From positions 31,541 to 95,540 of the forward strand of contig JAGWIK010000007.1 in NCBI GenBank assembly GCA_028866275.1: a DNA stretch of 64,000 bases, given 5' to 3'. Every line of letters begins with the position of its first letter. Position 1 is the first letter of the stretch. A model generated the notes under the pieces. The model had not been told where the DNA came from. It was given only the letters and a program-made list of their open reading frames with translations, and searched no databases. Origin of the DNA: Alphaproteobacteria bacterium. GTDB lineage: Bacteria; Pseudomonadota; Alphaproteobacteria; UBA9219. The position numbers were made by a program, and so were the translations under genes. Of this stretch, positions 6,667 to 8,614 are shown piece by piece.

Positions 6667-6693
6667 TGGCGGATTATTTAAGATAATCCGCCA
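6667..6693. terminator. Perfect 11-bp stem palindrome, probable bidirectional terminator
   Basis: TGGCGGATTAT-TTAAG-ATAATCCGCCA. Confidence 0.55.
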
Positions 6694-6809
6694 CCAACGC
6701 TTCGGCAATCTGCACGGCGTTCAACGCCGCGCCTTTGCGCAGATTGTCGCCGACCACCCATAAATTCAGCCCGTTCTCGACGCTGATATCCTAGCGGATA
6801 CGGCTGACG
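6674..6809 (-). pseudogene. Remnant of asd 3' end (duplicated fragment)
   Basis: 6705-6809 matches 7626-7730 over 105 bp with 2 mismatches; frame encodes [43 protein letters not shown] with internal TAG. Confidence 0.9.
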
Positions 6810-6925
6810 CGTGCATTTGCTGATGTGATTCCAGTTCCACGCTTGGTGCGCAAGTAATTTTGTTCTTTCATGGCGAAGCGCGTTAATATAGAAAGCCAAT
6901 ATGTGCGTATTTTTAAGGAAAAATT

Positions 6926-7549
6926 ATGAATCCTATTGAACAAGCCTTTCATGCTGCGAAAGCCATTTGCGGCCCTGTCTGCAAACTTGCCAATGAATGG
7001 CGCGATACCTTGTTGTACACAGGTATCGCCGTTGGACTTGGGTTTGCCCTGGTGCATGGCGGTGGCAGAGCGTCGGCAAACATGGCCCAAAACATTGTTC
7101 TTCAACGTGAGTTGATTAGAGCCTTGATGTGGAATTTTGGTAAATTTAAGAAAATAGCCGGATACGATCCGGTTCCTGTGGATAGAGCAAAAAACTCTCT
7201 TGCCGCGCTCTTTGTGGTCGCGTCTGTGGGGATGGTAGGTGAGATGCCTCCGCTTTCGACGCATGTGCATACATTTGGCCTAACGGTCCAAGTTGTCGCT
7301 GGTACCTTGACGGGGCTTGGTCTATATGGACGTGGTTCCGGAGTTCGCGATATTCCCGCATTGTATTTTCATGATCAAACCGGCATGTGGGATTGGCCGC
7401 GCAAGCAGGGCGGCGGAACAACGCAGACGCAAAAGTTGAAAAACGCGTTCGGAAAATTTGGCAGAACGCTGGCGGGGTACGTGCCGGTTCCCCGCCCTGC
7501 CTATAGTCCGTCTCCTGTTGCGAGTCGTTCTTCTGCCGAGGTGGGCTAA
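6926..7549 (+). CDS. Orphan putative membrane protein
   Basis: 207 aa, hydrophobic segments LLYTGIAVGLGFALVHGGG and SLAALFVVASVGMVG; upstream AAGGAAAAATT-ATG; locally lower GC. Confidence 0.6.
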   Translation: MNPIEQAFHAAKAICGPVCKLANEWRDTLLYTGIAVGLGFALVHGGGRASANMAQNIVLQRELIRALMWNFGKFKKIAGYDPVPVDRAKNSLAALFVVASVGMVGEMPPLSTHVHTFGLTVQVVAGTLTGLGLYGRGSGVRDIPALYFHDQTGMWDWPRKQGGGTTQTQKLKNAFGKFGRTLAGYVPVPRPAYSPSPVASRSSAEVG

Positions 7550-7594
7550 GAAAGACGATCACGACACAGTCAACGGCGGTTGCCCGGCGAAACC

Positions 7595-8614
7595 CTATCC
7601 CAAATAATCCTTGGCAAGCAGCTCTGCAATCTGCACGGCGTTCAACGCCGCGCCTTTGCGCAGATTGTCGCCGACCACCCATAAATTCAGCCCGTTTTCG
7701 ACGCTGATATCCTCGCGGATACGGCTGACGAAAACATTGTCTTCGCCCGCGCACTCAACCGGCGTCACGAACCCGTCTTCGTGATGATGGTCGATGACGG
7801 TAACGCCCTTGGCCTTTTTCAACGCCGCGCGCGCTTCGCCCGCGCTGATGGGGTTTTCGAATTCGACATTGACCGCTTCGGCATGGCCGATGAAAACAGG
7901 CACGCGCACGCAGGTCGCCGACAGTTTGATCTTGGGGTCGAGGATCTTCTTGGTCTCGGCCATCATCTTCCATTCTTCCTTCGTCATGCCGTCATCCATA
8001 AAAACATCGATCTGCGGAATGACGTTGAAGGCGATCTGCTTGCGGAATTGTTCCTTTTTCAACTCGTCGTTGACGAACACCGCGCGCGTTTGCGTGAACA
8101 ACTCGTCCATCGCCTCCTTGCCCGCGCCCGACACCGATTGATAGGTGGCCACAACGATGCGCGTGATTTTGGCAAGGTCATGCAAAGGCTTTAACGCCAC
8201 CAGCATCTGAATGGTCGAACAATTGGGGTTGGCGATGATATTGCGTTTTTTGTATCCGGCAATGGCTTCGGGGTTGACTTCGGGCACCACCAGCGGCACA
8301 TCCGGATCCATGCGAAATTGTGACGTGTTGTCGATGACGACGCATCCGGCCTTGCCCGCGCGCGGCGCGAATTCCGCCGAAACTTTCGCCCCGGCCGAAG
8401 ACAGGCATATGTCCGTGCCTTTGAAATCATAGGTCGCAAGATCTTGCACCGTCAGCACATCGTCTTCGCCGAAACTGACCTCGCCGCCCGCCGAACGTCC
8501 GGATGCCAACGCGATAACGTCCGCCACCGGAAAGCCGCGTTCGGCCACGGTTTTCAACATTTCGCGGCCCACGGCCCCGGTCGCGCCGACAACGGCTATT
8601 TTGTATTTTTTCAT
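7595..8614 (-). CDS. asd: Aspartate-semialdehyde dehydrogenase
   Basis: MKKYKIAVVGATGAVGREML, NPNCSTIQMLVALKPLHD active-site Cys motif. Confidence 0.95.
   Translation of the reverse strand: MKKYKIAVVGATGAVGREMLKTVAERGFPVADVIALASGRSAGGEVSFGEDDVLTVQDLATYDFKGTDICLSSAGAKVSAEFAPRAGKAGCVVIDNTSQFRMDPDVPLVVPEVNPEAIAGYKKRNIIANPNCSTIQMLVALKPLHDLAKITRIVVATYQSVSGAGKEAMDELFTQTRAVFVNDELKKEQFRKQIAFNVIPQIDVFMDDGMTKEEWKMMAETKKILDPKIKLSATCVRVPVFIGHAEAVNVEFENPISAGEARAALKKAKGVTVIDHHHEDGFVTPVECAGEDNVFVSRIREDISVENGLNLWVVGDNLRKGAALNAVQIAELLAKDYLG

Follow-up and report, generated by a model that had tools for sequence, protein, structure and literature searches.

In E. coli, a search for homology-facilitated illegitimate recombination yielded duplications of the lacZ end: part of that end was duplicated in 56 of 60 recombinants obtained with an incoming molecule that bore it, and the 14 duplications that were sequenced, 109-950 bp in length, were attributed to a single crossover with the recircularised molecule (PMC3240628). 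At rhs loci, identical cores bear exchanged C-termini and core-plus-tip fragments lie downstream, for which a circular intermediate and a single crossover were proposed (Jackson et al. 2009, PMC2935791). The e14 element of E. coli K-12 sits in icd, where the incoming sequence restores the 3' end of the gene and a displaced 3' fragment remains, the icdA and icdC repeats showing 12 differences between the alleles (PMC4759930). Effector displacement in the type VI secretion system (T6SS) of Vibrio cholerae is a homology-anchored gain of genes as well, in which older genes or gene ends are left downstream (PMC5361080).

Here, a 64-kb stretch of DNA from an uncultured alphaproteobacterium (the window; its genome is G000) was analysed, in which direct repeats of the 3' end of asd flank a short insert and one of the two copies completes asd (Table 1). 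On balance, we take this structure to be a recombination scar, left when one event brought two different asd 3' flanks together. Like the lacZ duplications, it combines an insertion anchored at a gene end with a duplicated end, of 105 bp plus a tail in this case. However, those duplications came from an engineered plasmid under selection (PMC3240628), whereas the asd case is read from a genome sequence and has a diverged replacement tail. With the rhs loci it shares the same core on the attached and displaced copies, different tips and extra sequence between them, and the circular intermediate with a single crossover is also what we propose for asd (PMC2935791). The rhs tips, in contrast, are unrelated toxin domains that form arrays, while asd is a housekeeping gene with homologous ten-codon ends and one event. 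The restored gene end and the displaced fragment are features in common with e14, but e14 is a prophage with site-specific excision at an 11-bp repeat, and the asd unit holds one gene and no recombinase. Homology-anchored gain with older ends left downstream is likewise common to asd and the V. cholerae loci; these exchange selected effector-immunity modules (PMC5361080), and nothing comparable is known for the asd cargo. The asd scar looks like a one-off product of recombination of a type already described and not like a new kind of mobile element, and it is unusual mainly since its host gene is an essential housekeeping gene of amino-acid synthesis.

Two asd 3' ends and one intact gene

Table 1. 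Features of the asd locus, in window coordinates.
Feature	Position	Strand	Basis
Conserved 98-aa gene, left anchor of the block common to three sisters	4542..4838	+	tblastn; no Pfam match
DEAD-box RNA helicase	5011..6651	+	Pfam DEAD + Helicase_C
Inverted repeat, perfect 12-bp arms around a 5-nt loop	6666..6694	.	between helicase stop and displaced asd tail
Displaced asd tail, ten codons then stop	6674..6704	-	sequence comparison of tails
105-bp copy of the conserved asd 3' segment, displaced, with a nonsense and a silent change	6705..6809	-	
Cargo left end, leader of the orphan gene; putative illegitimate joint at 6809/6810	6810..6925	+	
Cargo gene, 207 aa, motifs NEWRDT and GMWDWPRK...TTQTQK	6926..7549	+	protein alignment of homologues
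Spacer, cargo gene to intact asd stop codon	7550..7594	.	sequence
asd, aspartate-semialdehyde dehydrogenase, intact, 339 aa	7595..8614	-	Pfam PF01118 + PF02774
Tail in use on asd, ...AELLAKDYLG stop	7595..7625	-	
Conserved 3' segment of intact asd, second repeat copy	7626..7730	-	

Both 105-bp repeats correspond to the minus-strand 3' coding end of asd and lie 921 bp apart. An earlier note on this DNA had described them as antisense asd ends with two mismatches and no indels, and a recount (103/105 identical positions, no indel) agreed. The mismatch at position 6776 is silent (codon 306, GAA/GAG), and the one at 6793 changes codon 301 from GAG to TAG, which places an in-frame nonsense codon in the displaced fragment. 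The longest exact run within the pair, 71 bp, is also the longest exact direct repeat of the window, compared with at most 17 bp in 20 mononucleotide shuffles, and the pair received a BLAST E value of 1e-48.

The displaced fragment comprises 136 bp (6674-6809) on the helicase side, with its stop codon at 6674-6676. Its translation gives 43 residues, including its own last ten codons, and differs from the end of the intact gene, which runs NAVQIAELLAKDYLG and then stops, the last ten residues being AELLAKDYLG. Both tails stop in frame at homologous positions. In the 33 nucleotides past NAVQI, 16 positions match between the two copies, against 103 of 105 just upstream, and this drop in identity is located sharply at base 6705/7626. 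The in-frame TAG and the diverged terminus of the distal copy, both pointed out in the earlier note, were thus recovered, as codon 301 and as tails matching at 16/33 positions. A near-identical core with differing tips is what the rhs type of displacement displays; the host gene here is asd and not a polymorphic toxin gene.

Because the identity drops so sharply, two asd alleles have recombined, rather than one having been simply duplicated. That the asd end was merely duplicated in tandem was rejected, since half of the tail positions disagree although the adjoining segment is 98% identical. Judged from the two sequences, two diverged alleles recombined close to where the repeat begins. With a 98% match, the two copies of the 105-bp segment would stem from one lineage or from very close ones, unless gene conversion evened them out afterwards. 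Aligned with relatives, the 105-bp segment of intact asd matched at 70-82 of 96 positions and the two tails at 10-22 and 14-21 of 33. The tails assign no source, as both resemble the tails of relatives about equally and are too short; in form, the tail in use, AELLAKDYLG, is closest to AEILAKDYLG of G007. The intact protein has the Semialdhyde_dh and Semialdhyde_dhC domains (Pfam) and is 85-89% identical, over its full length, to that of close relatives.

Inside the repeat, a perfect palindrome with 7-bp arms (CGGCGTTCAACGCCG) is present at 6715-6729 and 7636-7650. The tails begin to diverge about 10 bp away from it, and it may reflect chance codon use.

The genome is a metagenome-assembled draft of 78 contigs and the repeat opens with 71 exactly matching bp, so that two strain variants might have been joined at the repeat during assembly. 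However, there are two differences between the copies, and the sequence to the left and right of the fragment is unique, where a wrong join would leave only one such junction. The whole unit, moreover, lies inside a 95-kb contig. We regard an assembly artefact as very unlikely.

Relatives and the helicase side

Extra asd ends were searched for in 96 relatives; 24 genomes of the family, including that of the window, were covered. A second asd tail was absent from the other 23 family genomes, no other extra end beside a full-length asd was confirmed among the 96 relatives, and the matches listed from 241 genomes of the class contained no other truncated second tail. An ancient inherited state, which the earlier note would have recognised by two tails and the ORF in all relatives, was rejected because no relative has both tails; in the family, none of the other 23 genomes carries this combination.

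The gene order ferredoxin (fdx), 98-aa gene, asd, thiolase and fad is the same in G007, G002 and G005 as in the window, and in these three genomes the neighbourhood contains neither the helicase nor the cargo gene. The 98-aa gene, found by tblastn, lies beside asd in all three and is 60-69% identical. In G007 (L041) and G002 (L044) a small plus-strand orphan, different in each, adjoins asd and is convergent with it, and G005 has none; neither orphan has a Pfam match or is homologous to the cargo gene. All four genomes with these flanks differ in what lies between the 98-aa gene and asd. An empty site, predicted earlier as a helicase directly beside a single asd tail, was not found in the 24 family genomes, the sisters of the same gene order having no helicase there. 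Members of this helicase subfamily in the relatives lie on a contig other than that of asd or tens of kb away from it, and in none of the relatives searched, the sisters included, are they at this place. Since the same-order sisters have no helicase there and the subfamily lies elsewhere in relatives, the helicase is a newcomer too, a lineage-specific arrival at this place. Its true start may be downstream of 5011, and imperfect 15-bp repeats with RDH/REH motifs encode the long tail at its C-terminal end.

The stop codons of the helicase and of the displaced fragment are 22 bp apart. The inverted repeat at 6666-6694 spans the stop codon of the fragment; it has no T run, its z value is -3.1 on one strand and -4.1 on the other, and it is a possible shared terminator stem. 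Gap and hairpin together look like the remains of a formerly compact convergent helicase/asd pair. Such a layout would favour the tail of the fragment as the older neighbour of the helicase, while the layout of the sisters, without a helicase, favours the opposite.

The same structure would be left if the orphan had already been beside asd and the helicase had arrived at this pair with an asd tail of its own. G007 and G002, in which one small plus-strand orphan adjoins asd and the helicase is missing, resemble the order 98-aa gene, ORF and asd that this reading supposes, and the tail in use resembles those of the sisters in form. However, the two orphans are not homologous to the cargo gene, the tails with their 10-22 and 14-21 matches of 33 are too short to be assigned, and the 22-bp distance with a perfect hairpin across it is as expected of an established convergent pair. 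We consider this reversed course of events unlikely.

The gene between the copies

The insert has one substantial ORF (6926-7549), and the AELLAKDYLG tail and the cargo are contiguous, with the asd frame intact. Searches of Pfam, PHROGs, NCBIfam and PADLOC gave no match for the product. The description of this ORF as an orphan holds with regard to these family databases, but homologues are present in four other genomes of the order. Altogether, the family is full-length in five genomes of the order (the window genome, G002, G005, G009 and G030) and is represented by fragments or a decayed copy in three further ones; no member was found outside this order, which consists of uncultured Alphaproteobacteria.

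In G002, G005 and G009, the homologues occupy a place defined by lipB, serA and DUF2336. The window genome has the cargo gene only beside asd, and its own lipB/serA/DUF2336 place holds a pirin gene. The cargo gene is a gene that changed place and not a hallmark gene of mobile elements. The neighbour of lipB on contig 50 of the window genome (L114, 4228-5130) is this pirin-family gene, at the position where G002 and G005 have the cargo homologue. The place beside lipB also seems to be variable. In G006 it is occupied by what we take to be an MqsR/MqsA-like pair.

The cargo gene has a GC3 of 0.50, whereas long ORFs of the window average 0.69, and its sister homologues have 0.45-0.51. Low G+C as proof of a foreign origin was rejected, because the sister homologues are equally low and the value is a family trait. 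The predicted structure of the protein is helical, with a mean pLDDT of 48 that is too poor for a fold search, and the product is at most a likely membrane protein. The leader region 6810-6925 has no similarity to any relative locus compared or to the lipB/serA locus of the same genome. A gene remnant at 6810-6854 (RAFADVIPVPRLVRK followed by a stop) was considered and dropped, as no convincing match was obtained.

The earlier note had likened the unit to islands that target gene ends, although with a very small cargo and no visible recombinase. This last part was confirmed: the insert carries one gene and encodes no tyrosine or serine recombinase that Pfam, PHROGs, NCBIfam or PADLOC could detect. 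An element of the type of e14 in icd could have used the asd 3' end and since been reduced to one gene, or could have been mobilised by an integrase from outside. The anatomy fits, with direct repeats at both ends, a restored gene end and a displaced fragment, and e14 in E. coli K-12 is a precedent (PMC4759930). However, a cargo without a recombinase argues against such an element, as does the want of any other displaced asd tail, confirmed among the 96 relatives or seen among the matches listed from 241 class genomes. The cargo protein had no match among phages, plasmids or IMG/VR, on which ground a phage or plasmid cargo was rejected, and in the sisters the gene is at an ordinary chromosomal place. 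The sole IMG/VR match to asd speaks no more for an element: on contig L206 (4440-5144), a phage DNA polymerase frame is fused to a C-terminal portion of asd, an rsmD-like gene follows, and this contig is probably chimeric. No report of asd as an integration site was found in the open-access papers searched. A gene-end-targeting element is, in our judgement, quite unlikely, and the comparison with islands is not supported.

A proposed recombination event at asd

For the scar of a single recombination event, we propose the following course. A short DNA fragment with the conserved asd end, its own last ten codons and the cargo gene would have entered the cell and was probably circularised by an illegitimate joint, which would now be at 6809/6810. 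A single crossover within the common asd segment (at most 105 bp) would have put the circle of about 0.9 kb into the chromosome. The body of the chromosomal asd would now read into the incoming tail AELLAKDYLG and stay functional, and the displaced segment with the old tail would have been left as a silent fragment beside the helicase, gaining its stop codon later. The circular intermediate, the RecA-type crossover, an origin from a close relative and the choice of the incoming flank are our inferences.

As expected of a single crossover, the gene-end duplication is present; the joint without homology would be the one at 6809/6810. Against the proposal stands the position of the cargo family at lipB/serA/DUF2336 in three sisters, which leaves its link to an asd tail without an explanation. 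A search for the cargo beside asd or other gene ends, suggested earlier, revealed no donor with asd adjoining this gene among the relatives searched, and led instead to the lipB/serA/DUF2336 place of the sisters. A donor that combined a 98%-identical segment with a 48%-identical tail must already have undergone recombination, unless the segment was evened out afterwards by gene conversion. The earlier suggestion that insertion or recombination had rebuilt the asd tail stands in that the tail is of another allele and the displaced fragment was kept, while either side may have been the inserted one.

If so, a single gene settled beside an essential gene without a recombinase, and the end of the host gene was swapped and not broken. 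It is the displaced fragment that betrays the event, and such scars at the ends of housekeeping genes could serve as a measure of integrase-free gene gain, although one case in one uncultured genome changes little. More speculatively, the asd 3' end might, in this lineage, be a recurrent exchange point at which small circles, each with an asd end and a lineage-specific gene, swap in without an integrase. We give this idea very little credence; were it true, it would be a housekeeping version of the tip displacement at rhs, and the differing intervals in the four genomes would be its footprint.

Of the repeats examined in the window and across about 300 kb of relatives' loci, none was recognised as a comparable gene-end duplication. 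A direct repeat of 86 bp (94%) occurs in the window at 36446-36531 and 36590-36675. One copy corresponds to the upstream region and the 5' half of tRNA-Ser(TGA) (36639-36728), and the truncated copy, 144 bp upstream, ends at the anticodon loop; the pair is possibly an integration scar or a partial tandem duplication.
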